64,000 nt of DNA from Chloroflexota bacterium. GTDB lineage: Bacteria > Chloroflexota > Chloroflexia > Chloroflexales > Herpetosiphonaceae. Made by a program: the position numbers and the translations under genes. The stretch lies in contig JAIUOC010000005.1 of assembly GCA_020161265.1 (NCBI GenBank), positions 310,001 through 374,000 on the forward strand. The letters run 5' to 3'. This document shows positions 49,866 through 56,374 of the stretch, piece by piece; positions within the stretch are counted from its first letter, which is position 1; the number at the start of each line of letters is the position of its first letter. The notes under the pieces were generated by a model. That model did not search any database. It had not been told where the DNA came from and was given only the letters and a program-made list of their open reading frames with translations.

Positions 49866-50903
49866 TTAGCGAATACCGAAGATCTTGACGATATGCGGCG
49901 TATCAATGATCACATGGGGCGCAATCGTATGATAGCCTAGGGCATGGACCCAAGCATTGCCTGTGCGGAGCGTCAAGACTGTTTTGATCATTCCTGCACC
50001 AAAATAGCTGATCAACACAAATATAATCGAGATCAATCCATTGGTTGGGGTGCTAAAATTTGTCCAAGCCTCGGCCATGTGAACGACGGCATAACTTACC
50101 CCACCCAGCAATACGGTTGTAATCGCTGAACCAGTAATTTTGAGAAAGCGCGGAATTAGAATTGAATAGATTAAGATCATGGTTGGTAAGACTGTTCCCA
50201 AGCCATAAATGACCAGTGAAAGTGGTAAGCCCAAGGCCAATTGACTAAAGCTTAGGCGATTGAGGCTTGTACCCAAGGTAGTTAGTTCAAACAGTGATTC
50301 CGAGATCGCAATTACGGCAATTACCAAAAAATCGTTGCGGCGATTAGTTGAGACTAAATTAAGTTGGACGGCGCTGTAGCGGCGGCGAAACCATAGATAT
50401 GGAACGACTGCATAGAACCCAAAATTGTAGATGGCCCAACTCCATACTTCGGCAATCGATAAATCGCCATGCCCACCAACCAAGGTTCCCGCCAAGTGAA
50501 AACTAAACGGCTGAAAGCCTAACAGTGGCCCTAAAACCCATCCCAACGCCTGACCAAATACGGCATAAGCCACTAAACCAAGCGTTTCCCGCAGGGCTTG
50601 GCTACGTTCAGGGGCACGCGCCGCTACATCTATGACTGGGCGATTACGGGTCAGCATATAGCCCAAGCCCATCAGTACAAATATTTCTAGCATCATGACG
50701 CTTGGTACAAACATCTGAAGCACAAAGGGACTTCCCGCAAAGGCTGGTCGATCAAATGGTAGCGCACCATCGCTTAGAAGAATAATTAAACCATGGCCTA
50801 TGATCCACAAAAAAATCGTTAATTGAACCCCACGATGACTTAATAGATTTAATAGCCATGATCGTTGGGCTTGGACTGGTTTAGTTGGCGCTTGAGTTGC
50901 CAT
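49866..50903 (-). CDS. Multi-pass membrane protein of unknown function
   Basis: A 345-residue protein with about nine hydrophobic segments after a short basic N-terminus. Conserved-looking polar spots sit in the last membrane helices (YAVVHMAEAW and WVHALGYHTIAPHV), a pattern that recalls CPBP-type intramembrane proteases, but their EExxxR motif is not seen. I therefore leave the function open. AAGGAG lies 7 nt before the ATG. It is a single gene with its own terminator. Confidence 0.7.
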   Translation of the reverse strand: MATQAPTKPVQAQRSWLLNLLSHRGVQLTIFLWIIGHGLIILLSDGALPFDRPAFAGSPFVLQMFVPSVMMLEIFVLMGLGYMLTRNRPVIDVAARAPERSQALRETLGLVAYAVFGQALGWVLGPLLGFQPFSFHLAGTLVGGHGDLSIAEVWSWAIYNFGFYAVVPYLWFRRRYSAVQLNLVSTNRRNDFLVIAVIAISESLFELTTLGTSLNRLSFSQLALGLPLSLVIYGLGTVLPTMILIYSILIPRFLKITGSAITTVLLGGVSYAVVHMAEAWTNFSTPTNGLISIIFVLISYFGAGMIKTVLTLRTGNAWVHALGYHTIAPHVIIDTPHIVKIFGIR

Positions 50904-50980: not shown

Positions 50981-51022
50981 ATGAGGGATGAGGGATGAGG
51001 GATGAGGGATGAGGGATGAGGG
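50981..51022. repeat. Six tandem copies of the heptamer ATGAGGG
   Basis: The 7-bp unit ATGAGGG is repeated six times without interruption. The same unit occurs in looser form at about 8849-8880 and 55749-55760, so it belongs to a dispersed intergenic family. Because 7 is not a multiple of 3 it is not coding. Confidence 0.9.
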
Positions 51023-51033
51023 ATGACATTTTG

Positions 51034-51101: not shown

Positions 51102-51908
51102 CTAGATCAAACCAAACTCACGGGCTAATATTTGATCAAGCTGAGCCTCACCATAGGCTGGCACATACAAGGTGGCATAGGCCGAAACGTGCTGTTCAGC
51201 CAAATCTTTGAGCAGCACACGCCGAATGCTTGGTTCTTCAATTGGCAAAATTGCCGCTTGATAGATCGTCACTTCATGCTGAGCAGGGTAAAATGTTTGT
51301 AAATGGGCTACCAAACGGGCTAAGCCAGCCCGTGAATCAAGCTGATCGTGCACCACCTTGAAATAGCCAATCACTCCAATTTGCCATAAAACCAAGGGTG
51401 TGCTGGGGTCGAAGCGCCGTGGGCGTACCAAAAAATCGCTGGCCTCATAACTTTGATAGCCATGCAACCCTGGATCGATTGCCAAATCGGCAAACAAACA
51501 AGCCTCAGCTGAAATACCCGGCAATATGTTGACCCGTAGGCCTTCGCGCTGCCCGCGCTGCACCAAATCGCTGGTTGGGGTCACAAAGACGCTTGGATGG
51601 CCATAAAATGCCACACAAACCCGCAACCCCTGACAGACTGCGGCCCAAATATGCTCGACCATGGCTGCATAAACCTGCTCACGTGGCTGATCAGCTTGAT
51701 AAAAATGCGCTAACGATTCGGCCTGCGGATTCAGCTTGTGAATCCATTCATCGGCCAGCGGATGCATCACCAAGTAAAAAGTTTGGTCGGCTTTGCTGAT
51801 CCAGGCATGGGCTTCATTGGTTAAATGCGCGATCATGGTGATGCCTGTGCCAACAATTGTCAGCGAACCTTGTTTCACTGCTAATCCCATGCTATTGTGG
51901 TTGCTCAT
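51102..51908 (-). CDS. Borosin-type peptide alpha-N-methyltransferase
   Basis: A 268-residue SAM-dependent methyltransferase of the tetrapyrrole-methylase fold. It matches fungal OphMA along its length: GSLTIVGTGI, AFYGHPSVFVTP, ILPGISAEACLFADLAIDP, YEASDFLVR and LWQIGVIGY. Residues Tyr70, Arg76, Tyr80 and Tyr102 sit at a constant offset of four from the OphMA active-site Tyr66, Arg72, Tyr76 and Tyr98 as I recall them. This family methylates backbone amides of a peptide. Unlike OphMA it has no fused core peptide, so it is a split form acting on a separate substrate. Its start overlaps the end of the upstream gene by 17 bp; the ATG at 51890, one base after that stop, is an alternative start. 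Confidence 0.85.
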   Translation of the reverse strand: MSNHNSMGLAVKQGSLTIVGTGITMIAHLTNEAHAWISKADQTFYLVMHPLADEWIHKLNPQAESLAHFYQADQPREQVYAAMVEHIWAAVCQGLRVCVAFYGHPSVFVTPTSDLVQRGQREGLRVNILPGISAEACLFADLAIDPGLHGYQSYEASDFLVRPRRFDPSTPLVLWQIGVIGYFKVVHDQLDSRAGLARLVAHLQTFYPAQHEVTIYQAAILPIEEPSIRRVLLKDLAEQHVSAYATLYVPAYGEAQLDQILAREFGLI

Positions 51909-52488
51909 CGAAGGCTATTTCAAATAATGGTGGCTGATCATCTCTTTGGCGATGATAGACAAAATTCGTTAATTTTGTATGAACTGGGCGAGTTCTACCG
52001 ACCAAAATATAATTATTGGCTGGAATATGTAACTCAATTGGGATATTGGCACAATTGTAGGTTGGTTGTTCGATTTGGTTTTTGCTGCGAATATAAAAAA
52101 CCTGGGGAATATCATCAGGGTCGTTTGGGTCAACATAGCAAACATGTAAATCGAAATAAGGATTACCATTATCATCTTCGATCATATAGCTATGATTGAG
52201 CAGCCAACAGGTCACGTTATAATCTTTGGATTTATCGGCGGCTTCGATAAATACATTCATATACGATGAAACTGTGACCGGAACATCTTGATAAGCTTGG
52301 GTTTCTGTTTGGGCAACAGTGCCAACACTTCGCAAGGTCATCACGGTGGTAACTTCTTGAATTGGGTCTGCTTTGGCGAGTTTTTGCCCAAGCCCTAGTT
52401 GTTGCAAAAAGCCCTGAGGATTTTGCTTGAACGAGGCTAAACGGCTTGGGTCATCGACGAGGGTTTGGACGAAATCGACCATATCCAT
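51892..52488 (-). CDS. Candidate borosin substrate protein with N-terminal binding domain
   Basis: A 198-residue protein without a clear family. Residues 4-34 (VDFVQTLVDDPSRLASF, then KQNPQGFLQQLGLG) resemble the helical borosin-binding domain of split-borosin precursors such as SonA of Shewanella, which has a similar DF..L..D...YKQNP....GL pattern. The remaining ~160 residues are beta-rich and hydrophilic, with no short hydrophobic tail; a Thr/Val-rich stretch EVTTVMTLRSVGTVAQT follows the helices. It is translated from GGAGG overlapping the regulator's stop codon and overlaps the methyltransferase gene. I infer it is the methylation substrate or a partner; the modified residues are unknown. 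Confidence 0.65.
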   Translation of the reverse strand: MDMVDFVQTLVDDPSRLASFKQNPQGFLQQLGLGQKLAKADPIQEVTTVMTLRSVGTVAQTETQAYQDVPVTVSSYMNVFIEAADKSKDYNVTCWLLNHSYMIEDDNGNPYFDLHVCYVDPNDPDDIPQVFYIRSKNQIEQPTYNCANIPIELHIPANNYILVGRTRPVHTKLTNFVYHRQRDDQPPLFEIAFDEQPQ

Positions 52489-52499
52489 GAATATTCCTC

Positions 52500-55400
52500 C
52501 TAATAAACCGCAATACTCTGGCTTTGCTCAATTTGGGTTAAGCAAAGGGCTACATAGCGTTCAATTCCTGACAGTTCAACCTCAACCATCGGCCTGCTTT
52601 GGCCTGCGGAATGTTGGTGCAACTGTAAACGATTGAGCAAGCTTTTGGTTTCGGCGCTACAGGCTGGATGTTGGCTCAAGCTATGCCATAGTTTGAACCA
52701 ATGGCTTGGCTCGCCATCGCAAACTGCCGCCCAAAATTGCAAAACCGTTGCATAACATTCGAGCAATAAGGGTATTTCTTGGCGTTGCTGGGCTACCATA
52801 ATCGCCCGCGCTAACCATGGCTGCACATATTGAAAATTACGTTGCGCCAATTCGAGTTGGGCTAGGTGAATCGCCGCCCGCCCAATCATAGCCTCCACCC
52901 CAAGTTCTTGAAAAATGGCAAAGGCTTTATGCAAATAGCCCGCACTTTGGGAAAAATCTTCGCGGCGCAGCGCCAACATGCCCATTTGATCGCGAATTAA
53001 TGCCTCGCCAAGCGGGGTCTTGAGTTGGTAGGCCAAATCAAGGCTGGCCTCAAAATGATGTTGCGCCAGATCATAATTGGCCTGCGCCAGCGCCACCACC
53101 CCCAAAAAGCGTTGACTATGGCATAAACCCCACAGATGTTTTTGGGCTTGATAGTGATCGCTACAGGTCTGAAAGGCTTGTTCGGCGGCTTGCCAATTGC
53201 CTTGCGCCAACAACACCGCGCCCATTGATAACCATGTATCGCTGACTTTAATTGGATCATTGACGTTTTCAGCTTGAGCCAAACAGCGTTGTAACAGATC
53301 AAGGGCGCGGGTATATTCGCCTCGGCGTTGGGTAATTACCCCAAGTTGCTTATAAATAAACAGCAATTCAGCTACATTCTGCAATTGCATTCGATACAAG
53401 ATATCGATACACTGTTGTAATAATGCCTCAGAACGTGCTAATTCGCCCAAAATATAATGAAACTCGGCGTAGCATGAAACAATTCGCACTACAATTAAAA
53501 CGATCTCAGTCTCAACATCCTGATGATCAAGTGTGCTTAATAACGCTGCGGCTGGAGCAAAAAGCTGTTGGCCTTCGATCTCACGGTTGCGAATTGCAAA
53601 GAAATCGTGTAAAGCAATACAATAATCGCCTAAAATGTGAATTTGTTGAGCTTGAACTGCCCAGAGCCAGCCACCCCGAATATTATCAAGCTCTTGTTCT
53701 AAGAGCATTAACCCTTGCTGGCTGGCGTTGCCATGAATTAATTGCTCTTGCTGACGGCTAAATTGGCCGAAGTAACGAGCATGGCGTTGATACAACGTTT
53801 GCTGATCGGCGGCCAAGCTTTGGAGTTTGGTTTGGGCAAATTGGTGCAGTAATGGATGTAAGGCATAGCGGGTTTGTTGTTGCAAAATTTCAAGCGTGAG
53901 CAACGATTTGGCGCGTAAATTGGCCAGCACGTTCAAATCGACCTCGGCAATGATTGTGGCGGTTTCAGCATTAAAGCTACTAGGAAATACCGCCAAGCGT
54001 GCTAAACAAGCCTGTTCATGTGGATCAAGCAATTGCCACGAATAATCAAATGCGGCCTGAATGCTGCGATGGCGGGTTGGAATATCGACTACATCGCTAT
54101 GAAAAAGCTGCATGTCATTGCTGAGTGCTGCGACAATTTCATTGCCACTGCGAATCGTCATCCATGGGGCAATCAATTCAATTGCCAAGGGCAAGCCATG
54201 GACCATCTGGCAAATTTGGCCAATCGCTTGACGATCTGCATGGCCATAATCGGCTAAATCGCCCGATTTGCCTTGACGCTGCAAACAATGTACAAATAAA
54301 TCGACCGCTGCAAAATGCTGAAGTTGCTCGGCCAACAACGGCGAATAGCCTGAATCATCATTAATCTGGGGATAGGCCAAGCCTGCTAATTCCAAGACAT
54401 ATTCGTTTTGCAGGCGCATGCGCTCACGTGAGCCAATAATGAAGCGTAATTGCGGAATATGTTGAATCAGACTGCTGAGGGCTAAGCGAGCGCTGGTTGC
54501 CAATAATTCGCCATTATCAATGATGATGATCAGTTCATGCTGTTGCAATTGGAGAATCAGGTGTTCAACCAGATCGTTGGTGCGTGGTGGTGGTAGGGTC
54601 AAAGCCTGCATAATTGCCAACAACACAGGTTCAGCATCCAATAGGCGCGGCTGTTGATCGGCGCTGACCAAGGAAATATAAAAAACTCCGTTGCTCGAAG
54701 CCCCTAAATATTCGTTGACCACCTTCCAGCCAAAGGTCAGAGCTAATTGGGTTTTGCCGCTACCGCCAGCGCCCATAATCGTCAGCAATTGGTTGCGTTC
54801 AGCCGCCAGCCAATGGGTGATGCGTTCTAGCTCGGCTTGGCGACCATAGAGCATTGGGGTTGGCCGAATCAAACGCTGCGGACGTTGGGCGGGTGTTGCC
54901 ATAATCTGGCGTTGTAAAGCCTCGCTCGCTGGCTCGGGTTTTAATCCATACTCACGCTCTAAAACTTGTTCGAGCAGCCGATATTGGCGCAGGGCCGTGT
55001 GACGTTGGCCAGTGCGCATCAAGAGTAACATCAACTGGCGATGGGCGACCTCATCACATTCATCAAGCGTCACCAAGCGCTGAAGCCAACGAATTGCCTC
55101 GTTGTAGTTGCTTACCACGCTATAGCGTTCGATCAGGCGGCGAATCGCGACCAGGGCTTGTTGTCGCCAATATTCCACCTGTTGGAGTTGCCAGCTGCTG
55201 AAGCCATCGGCATCGCGGAGATAAAACCCATTGAGAAAATCGCCTTGATAGTGTTCGATCGCGCTGGCTAATTCGTTGGTTGGGCTAGCTGGGTTGTCGA
55301 AAATTTGGGTGCAATGCTGAAGGTCGAGCCAATAACGGGCTTGGGGGTGTAATCCGATCGTATGGCGCGTGACCTCAATAAACGGGTCCATCACTTTACG

Positions 55401-55655
55401 TAATTGATTGAGTGTGAGGCGTAAGTTGCCCGCTGTGCGTTCTGCCGATAAATCATTCCATAACAATTGTGCCAAAACCTCACGTTCGTGGGGGTAAGGA
55501 TTGACTACAAGGTAGATCAGCAGTGCTTCCACTTTGCGCGTTGCCAGATCACTAATACGTTGATTGTCGATAAAGATCCGCAAGCCGCCAAAAACGTGAA
55601 TCCGTAAACTTGGCACCGATTGAGCCGAATCATCAGGCTGATGCGTGACATTCAC
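52500..55655 (-). CDS. SARP-type regulator with NB-ARC ATPase and TPR repeats
   Basis: A 1051-residue regulator. Residues ~15-110 are an OmpR-like winged helix (LRIHVFGGLRIFIDNQRISD, then LATRKVEALLIYLVVNP). Residues ~110-250 are a BTAD domain (FLNGFYLRDADGFSSWQLQQ). A P-loop IMGAGGSGKTQLALTF lies at about residues 292-307, with the rest of an NB-ARC-like ATPase after it. The last ~350 residues are TPR repeats. Such AfsR-like proteins often activate secondary-metabolite genes. Its stop codon forms part of the ribosome binding site of the next gene, so it is tied to the borosin-like pair. The signal it senses is unknown. Confidence 0.9.
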   Translation of the reverse strand: MNVTHQPDDSAQSVPSLRIHVFGGLRIFIDNQRISDLATRKVEALLIYLVVNPYPHEREVLAQLLWNDLSAERTAGNLRLTLNQLRKVMDPFIEVTRHTIGLHPQARYWLDLQHCTQIFDNPASPTNELASAIEHYQGDFLNGFYLRDADGFSSWQLQQVEYWRQQALVAIRRLIERYSVVSNYNEAIRWLQRLVTLDECDEVAHRQLMLLLMRTGQRHTALRQYRLLEQVLEREYGLKPEPASEALQRQIMATPAQRPQRLIRPTPMLYGRQAELERITHWLAAERNQLLTIMGAGGSGKTQLALTFGWKVVNEYLGASSNGVFYISLVSADQQPRLLDAEPVLLAIMQALTLPPPRTNDLVEHLILQLQQHELIIIIDNGELLATSARLALSSLIQHIPQLRFIIGSRERMRLQNEYVLELAGLAYPQINDDSGYSPLLAEQLQHFAAVDLFVHCLQRQGKSGDLADYGHADRQAIGQICQMVHGLPLAIELIAPWMTIRSGNEIVAALSNDMQLFHSDVVDIPTRHRSIQAAFDYSWQLLDPHEQACLARLAVFPSSFNAETATIIAEVDLNVLANLRAKSLLTLEILQQQTRYALHPLLHQFAQTKLQSLAADQQTLYQRHARYFGQFSRQQEQLIHGNASQQGLMLLEQELDNIRGGWLWAVQAQQIHILGDYCIALHDFFAIRNREIEGQQLFAPAAALLSTLDHQDVETEIVLIVVRIVSCYAEFHYILGELARSEALLQQCIDILYRMQLQNVAELLFIYKQLGVITQRRGEYTRALDLLQRCLAQAENVNDPIKVSDTWLSMGAVLLAQGNWQAAEQAFQTCSDHYQAQKHLWGLCHSQRFLGVVALAQANYDLAQHHFEASLDLAYQLKTPLGEALIRDQMGMLALRREDFSQSAGYLHKAFAIFQELGVEAMIGRAAIHLAQLELAQRNFQYVQPWLARAIMVAQQRQEIPLLLECYATVLQFWAAVCDGEPSHWFKLWHSLSQHPACSAETKSLLNRLQLHQHSAGQSRPMVEVELSGIERYVALCLTQIEQSQSIAVY

Positions 55656-55762: not shown

Positions 55763-56374
55763 ATGAACAGCGAAGTTCGGAATCAAAACCATCACAGCGA
55801 AACAGTGGCATTACAACTCGTCGAACAAATTTGCCGAGGCGAACATGCAGCCATTTGGGAGTTGTATAGTTTGTACCACACTGAACTGTCACAGCAATGT
55901 TTGGTTTGGATGCATGGCAATCCCCACGATGCCGATGAAGCATTAAGCCGTTTGGTGCTCAAAGCGTGGGAATCGTTGCCACGCCATGCCTATAAAATTA
56001 CCAACGCCAAGGCTTGGCTCATGCGCATGGCCTACAACATTTGCATCGATATTCATCGCCAACAACAACGCGAACTCAAGCGGCTCCAACCGCTGGATAG
56101 CCTGCTGGGCAATGACGACAGCATGCCACATAGCGCAACGCCCTCGCCCGAAACGGCGTTGTTGAAGCGTGAAGTTTATGAAACGATCAATCAAGCCTTG
56201 CAAGCGTTATCGCCACGCTTGAATAGCACTTTTTCGTTATGGCTCTACAACGATATGTCGTGCGATGCGATTGCTCAGCATCAAGGAATTTCGTTGGCCA
56301 ATGTCTATAAACGCTTGCAACAAGCCCGCGATATGCTGCAACCACAATTACGCCCAAGCACTGTTGAGGGGTGA
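55763..56374 (+). CDS. RNA polymerase sigma factor, sigma-70 (ECF-type)
   Basis: A 203-residue sigma factor. Region 2 includes HAAIWELYSLYHTELSQQCL and the DNA-melting part NAKAWLMRMAYNICIDIHRQQ. Region 4 includes LSPRLNSTFSLWLYNDMSCD and ANVYKRLQQARDML. No anti-sigma gene is adjacent. It is divergent from the SARP-type regulator gene across a 107-bp gap, so it may belong to the same regulatory unit, but this is only positional. Confidence 0.88.
   Translation: MNSEVRNQNHHSETVALQLVEQICRGEHAAIWELYSLYHTELSQQCLVWMHGNPHDADEALSRLVLKAWESLPRHAYKITNAKAWLMRMAYNICIDIHRQQQRELKRLQPLDSLLGNDDSMPHSATPSPETALLKREVYETINQALQALSPRLNSTFSLWLYNDMSCDAIAQHQGISLANVYKRLQQARDMLQPQLRPSTVEG

Follow-up and report, generated by a model that had tools for sequence, protein, structure and literature searches.

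A putative split-borosin-type substrate with a conserved, predicted all-beta body encoded beside a SonM-like methyltransferase in Herpetosiphon

Introduction

As of 2021, no ribosomal pathways other than those of the borosins were known to carry out backbone alpha-N-methylation (PMC8429565); EreM is a non-borosin enzyme for this modification (PMC11285071). In borosins of types I-III (viz. OphMA, dbOphMA and MroMA) the enzyme and its substrate form one chain. In the type IV system of Shewanella oneidensis (SonM-SonA) they are separate; SonA, which is about 71 residues long, has five helices and a core at its C-terminus, methylated at L63 and I65, and its borosin binding domain (BBD) wraps around the loop 208-216 of SonM (PMC8429565). 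The split borosins of types V-X (Imani et al., Cho et al.), as they are described in the papers citing this work (PMC11285071, PMC11395268), show varied architectures of BBD, core and enzyme, either separate or fused. Since BBD-like domains also cap unrelated dioxygenases (PMC8429565), the presence of a BBD alone is no proof that the protein carrying it is methylated.

The locus described here lies in a stretch of 64,000 nucleotides (the window) from a Chloroflexota bacterium of the Herpetosiphonaceae (contig JAIUOC010000005.1). The source organism is a soil bacterium. An earlier note on this DNA had proposed that an open reading frame at positions 51892-52488 encodes an unusually large substrate of a borosin methyltransferase, and this reading holds in outline, viz. 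the protein appears to be a split-borosin-type substrate with an unusual architecture.

Results and Discussion

Gene order and features of the locus

The open reading frame is real and its coordinates were given correctly: it begins with ATG on the minus strand and encodes 198 aa. Its start lies 11 nt past the stop of a gene for a 1051-aa regulator, and it overlaps the methyltransferase ORF by 17 nt. The features to which the following sections refer are listed below.

52500..55655, minus strand: BTAD / NB-ARC-like ATPase / TPR regulator of 1051 aa, encoded first in the cassette
51892..52488, minus strand: 198-aa BBD-bearing protein, putative methyltransferase substrate (ATG start, BBD profile tests, homology)
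52369..52482, minus strand: BBD-like N-terminus, residues 3-40 (profiles and model)
52327..52356, minus strand: strand-like segment EVTTVMTLRS, residues 45-54, candidate methylated segment (conserved; position of the site proposed)
52264..52317, minus strand: most variable stretch, residues 58-75, between the candidate core and the main body (dN/dS)
51895..52317, minus strand: all-beta body as modelled, residues 58-198, of which residues 76-198 are the strongly conserved part
51102..51908, minus strand: SonM-like peptide backbone alpha-N-methyltransferase, 268 aa (Pfam, PDB matches, alignment with SonM)

The adjacent gene encodes a borosin-type methyltransferase

The neighbour had been taken for a borosin-type alpha-N-methyltransferase, and the sequence comparisons bear this out. 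Its product matches Pfam TP_methylase (E 5e-18), and among PDB sequences its best match is SonM (E 7e-49); the fungal enzymes OphMA, dbOphMA and MroMA come next (E about 1e-41 to 1e-44). With these it shares a homologous methyltransferase fold and active site, whereas in the window enzyme and putative substrate are two chains. In an alignment with SonM and 82 relatives, the catalytic residues, whose roles are known from SonM (PMC8429565), are all present and identical, viz. Y70, R76, Y80, Y102, F108, W175 and Q176, corresponding respectively to Y58, R67, Y71, Y93, F99, W166 and Q167 of SonM. The BBD-docking loop of SonM (208-216, AANLPIQAP) likewise has a conserved counterpart in residues 218-226 (AAILPIEEP). 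In a methyltransferase tree the enzymes from Herpetosiphon and from a distant Chloroflexota metagenome-assembled genome (MAG) are joined with support 100/99, and their next neighbours (support 94/92) are gammaproteobacterial enzymes, including one from Legionella; two of these gammaproteobacterial enzymes are preceded by short ORFs, of 77 aa (L032) and 62 aa (L090).

The N-terminus resembles a borosin binding domain

That the N-terminus is BBD-like, as had been suggested, was confirmed with several profiles. To avoid circularity, one profile was built from 21 non-Chloroflexota precursors, with every Chloroflexota sequence excluded: with this profile the 198-aa ORF ranks first of the 775 ORFs in the window (E 3.8e-4, against 0.37 for the ORF in second place). 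Shuffling its N-terminus 2000 times gave at most 6.4 bits, against 18.9 for the real one. A second profile, combining the window protein with five homologues, was compared with all PDB sequences and gave seven matches, all of them SonA constructs aligning without gaps over residues 3-42; the single E-values are weak (0.7-1.0 each), and it is their unanimity that appears telling. Residues 3-34 also match the NCBIfam model IniB_NTERM (NF038175; E 1.3e-7, 31.5 bits), although this score is below the curated cut-off of 40 and the family takes its name from IniB-like proteins and not from methyltransferase substrates. The same model matches other precursors from borosin loci, several of them at E 3e-6 to 1e-4, and thus it recognises the helical family of BBDs.

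An iterated profile was applied to the ORFs surrounding 80 related methyltransferases, and 65 of these loci proved to have BBD ORFs. With a 25-row BBD alignment, which contains some sequences from the eight genomes that were searched with it, the sole BBD in seven of the eight was the protein adjoining the enzyme (one each), and no BBD was found in the eighth (G530). Two columns, P24 and L33, are conserved in at least 90% of the 25 BBDs. Based on these sequence comparisons, we infer that the N-terminal part of the protein (residues 3-42) is a borosin binding domain. It seems to be shortened, as the full-length model predicts three helices at low confidence (pLDDT 45-52), versus five in SonA.

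A substrate candidate of unusual length

In its separate alpha-N-methyltransferase, its adjacent gene for a BBD-bearing partner and its conserved docking loop the locus is like SonM-SonA. However, the core of SonA is C-terminal, whereas in the 198-aa protein the candidate core is internal and is followed by a conserved beta body of ~140 residues, and a large BTAD/NB-ARC/TPR regulator precedes the pair in the window. The short precursor (about 70-75 aa) with a C-terminal core that marks type IV is thus not seen here, and due to this the pair is classed as a variant and not as type IV. By this comparison, in which types V-X are known by the descriptions in citing papers, the system would work like a split borosin of unusual architecture.

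The protein had been called unusually large, and it is the combination of length and a globular body that stands out. About 158 residues follow the BBD match, against a median of 43 for 68 BBD ORFs found near methyltransferases. However, long BBD proteins as such are not unknown, and some have tails of low complexity: the equally long or longer ones are fusions with the enzyme (L046, L066) or have repeat-rich tails (L069, L075), and those of Herpetosiphon and the MAG are the long BBD proteins with a globular body. The fusions, from the genomes of a Streptomyces and a member of the Planctomycetales, have the BBD joined to the N-terminus of the methyltransferase (L046:5797-6822 and L066:5797-6801). 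Three BBD proteins, at L069:5123-5980, L075:5071-5892 and L077:2295-2807, end in long tails of tandem repeats (HPQIFPQ-like, APLSTR-like).

Protein and enzyme are inherited together

The earlier reading would be refuted by homologues occurring widely without a methyltransferase neighbour, but the protein and the adjoining enzyme stand together in all seven genomes in which the protein was found (six of Herpetosiphon and the distant Chloroflexota MAG), and neither gene is found alone among the relatives. Identity to the window protein is 81-100% in all six Herpetosiphon genomes sampled and 29% in the MAG. A search for the enzyme in 158 genomes of the class returned exactly the same seven genomes, and elsewhere in the samples of the order and class both are absent together. 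The protein was found in no further genome among 400 of the phylum, in none of 44 borosin-bearing genomes except the MAG's own (two more matches in this set, E 0.006 and 0.06, span only the BBD part), and not in the plasmids or viral contigs searched. There was no match in PHROGs, and Pfam gave only insignificant ones (DisA, E 0.04; LigA, E 0.02 on L021).

The C-terminal body is conserved and predicted to be all-beta

The large, beta-rich and hydrophilic C-terminal part described in the earlier note is real, and the tail is not hydrophobic. The same note had proposed looking for a variable core by comparison of homologues, but the C-terminal ~140 residues proved to be for the most part the most conserved. 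Calculated against the window protein within its Herpetosiphon relatives, dN/dS is 0.13-0.21 for residues 1-40 (BBD), 0.07-0.23 for residues 41-57, and 0.28-0.42 for residues 58-75; the body, taken from residue 76 onward, has 0.05-0.09 (0.08-0.10 in two further pairs). Purifying selection is thus strongest on the body, as expected of a conserved domain, and a reading of the C-terminus as a variable core was rejected because of the low dN/dS. Homology between the body of the window protein and that of its MAG counterpart is supported: the local score is 71, whereas shuffled sequences have a mean of 28 and reached 71 in 0 of 500 cases.

Structure prediction of the protein alone was successful for one part of the chain. 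With AlphaFold the full-length protein gave a poor model (pLDDT 39), with strands after residue 78 in addition to the three N-terminal helices, whereas the body alone (residues 58-198) was modelled with eleven strands and no helices (pLDDT 78.8, pTM 0.75). Foldseek matches of the full-length model were set aside because of its pLDDT. For the body, no convincing fold relative was found by Foldseek against PDB and BFVD or by VIA-align. Its top matches, SSB, PriB and Arcadin-1, have E 0.026 or worse and Z under 3, and the highly ranked SSB and PriB (OB-fold) chains have E 0.04 or worse and TM about 0.2. The body is hence predicted to be an all-beta domain without a recognised fold; the lack of a match should not be interpreted as proof of a new fold.

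These results bear on whether the protein is an ordinary RiPP precursor, in which the BBD would be the leader, the strand the core and the body a follower (for targeting, export or self-protection), a short N-methylated peptide being released by a protease encoded elsewhere. The BBD and the conserved strand do stand in precursor order, and the BBD proteins of L069 and L075 also carry core-like segments followed by long tails. Further, that few mature borosin compounds are known is attributed to the lack of a specific peptidase (PMC11395268), so that a missing protease does not exclude release. However, the presumed follower is the most conserved part of the protein, and the three-gene cassette has no recognised protease or exporter, although a protease could be encoded elsewhere. 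A membrane protein is encoded 200 bp downstream (49866-50903), but tblastn found no counterpart of it within the 6 kb that follow the enzyme at four Herpetosiphon loci (L017-L020), and it had no match in the other cassettes described below. As the body is conserved and not variable, a conventional released peptide is less likely than methylation of the protein itself, and we consider a precursor of this kind rather unlikely.

Related cassettes in other Chloroflexota

The gene order regulator, middle protein of 150-210 aa and methyltransferase recurs in further Chloroflexota, as listed below.

L026:2386-6777, Anaerolineae MAG: 156-aa BBD middle protein
L052:1938-6490, Caldilineaceae MAG: 181-aa BBD protein with a low-complexity tail
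L064:2307-6795, Ardenticatenaceae MAG: 200-aa beta-rich middle protein, no detectable BBD
L107:682-5302, same Ardenticatenaceae MAG as L064: 208-aa middle protein, no detectable BBD

When the window regulator was compared with these genomes, the regulators of the cassettes ranked first among 3 and among 13 matches, and took first and third place among 20; the association is therefore unlikely to be due to chance. The middle proteins differ between lineages, their bodies being unrelated or very distant: a shuffling test gave no sign that the window body is related to the bodies of L026 and L064, and the latter two proteins share just a weak GxFYVxDD-like stretch. The middle proteins of L064 and L107 have a GGxYVxDD stretch in common. 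Proteins resembling the window regulator are also seen near methyltransferases in several other phyla (L051, L053, L072, L074, L076, L085, L091).

The absence of a detectable BBD from the middle protein of two related cassettes indicates that its relation to the enzyme can differ, and accords with the protein being a regulatory or targeting subunit in place of a substrate, held on the enzyme by its BBD and bringing in the true target in trans through its beta body. The capping of other enzymes by BBD-like structures (PMC8429565) and the conservation of the body, similar to that of a binding domain, are also in accord with this. However, the BBD carrier itself serves as the substrate in SonM-SonA (PMC8429565), here the strand that follows the BBD is conserved, and the search of the genome yielded no second BBD protein. 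A role of this kind is in our view very unlikely.

Position of the putative methylated site

The segment EVTTVMTL (residues 45-52) of the window protein corresponds to EVSTVFTL in the 29%-identical MAG homologue. Among other BBD proteins, the hydrophobic 5-mer with the highest strand propensity mostly starts 25-32 residues past the conserved BBD leucine, and in the MAG protein such a 5-mer (TVFTL) starts at 23. The Herpetosiphon strand starts at about 13, because about eight residues are missing at the end of the BBD. That core-like segments lie farther from the BBD in most such proteins speaks against the explanation that we favour.

The site could instead lie inside the beta body or the linker, for example in VPVTV (residues 69-73), with the strand after the BBD serving as a structural connector. 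Residues 58-65 lie about as far from the BBD as cores usually do, and VPVTV slightly farther, at 36 past the leucine; further, the L064 and L107 cassettes have a beta-rich protein lacking a BBD before the enzyme. However, residues 58-75 vary more than any other part of the protein, and the model assigns some of them to strands of the body; we judge a site there to be unlikely. As EVTTVMTL is conserved and VPVTV is variable, residues 45-54, the strand between the BBD and the body, are our best guess for the methylated segment, and we hold it with moderate confidence.

Proposed explanation and its significance

It is probable, in our assessment, that the protein is a substrate methylated on this strand and that it retains its body, the product most likely being a backbone-methylated protein rather than a released peptide. 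The 198-aa protein would serve the borosin-type alpha-N-methyltransferase encoded next to it as a dedicated substrate in trans. The BBD of this protein would dock on the enzyme, as is suggested by the homology with SonA and the conserved docking loop, and docking would present EVTTVMTL to the active site, where, by analogy with SonM-SonA, one or more backbone amides of the strand would be N-methylated from S-adenosylmethionine. The conserved all-beta body would stay attached and do the biological work, which is consistent with the selection on it and with the cassette having no recognised protease, and the upstream BTAD/NB-ARC/TPR protein, judged by its domains and the gene order, is likely the switch that activates the operon.

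The cell may thus methylate the backbone of a whole protein, besides small peptides. More broadly, it is possible, and proposed here only tentatively, that Chloroflexota borosin-type methyltransferases modify the backbone of folded functional proteins, consisting of a BBD and an exchangeable beta body, with a dedicated ATPase regulator in control. If this is true, backbone N-methylation would be a regulatory or maturation mark on proteins, beyond peptide natural products. A substrate with a folded conserved domain would make it testable whether backbone alpha-N-methylation acts on whole proteins, and the shared cassette of regulator, body and enzyme supplies several further examples for such work. 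In addition, the BBD together with the strand would provide a natural enzyme-tag system by which folded cargo could be methylated.

Some other observations concern the surroundings of the locus and the wider distribution of the enzymes. A gene for an ECF sigma factor (55763-56374, plus strand) is divergently transcribed; it is kept in four other Herpetosiphon loci and was not found in the other cassettes. A short tandem repeat of GATGAGG is present at 50985-51027, between the methyltransferase gene and the membrane-protein gene. Borosin-type methyltransferases forming one clade (support 99/95) are also found in Thermoplasmata archaeal MAGs (L043, L048, L057, L062, L095), most of them with an adjacent BBD ORF.
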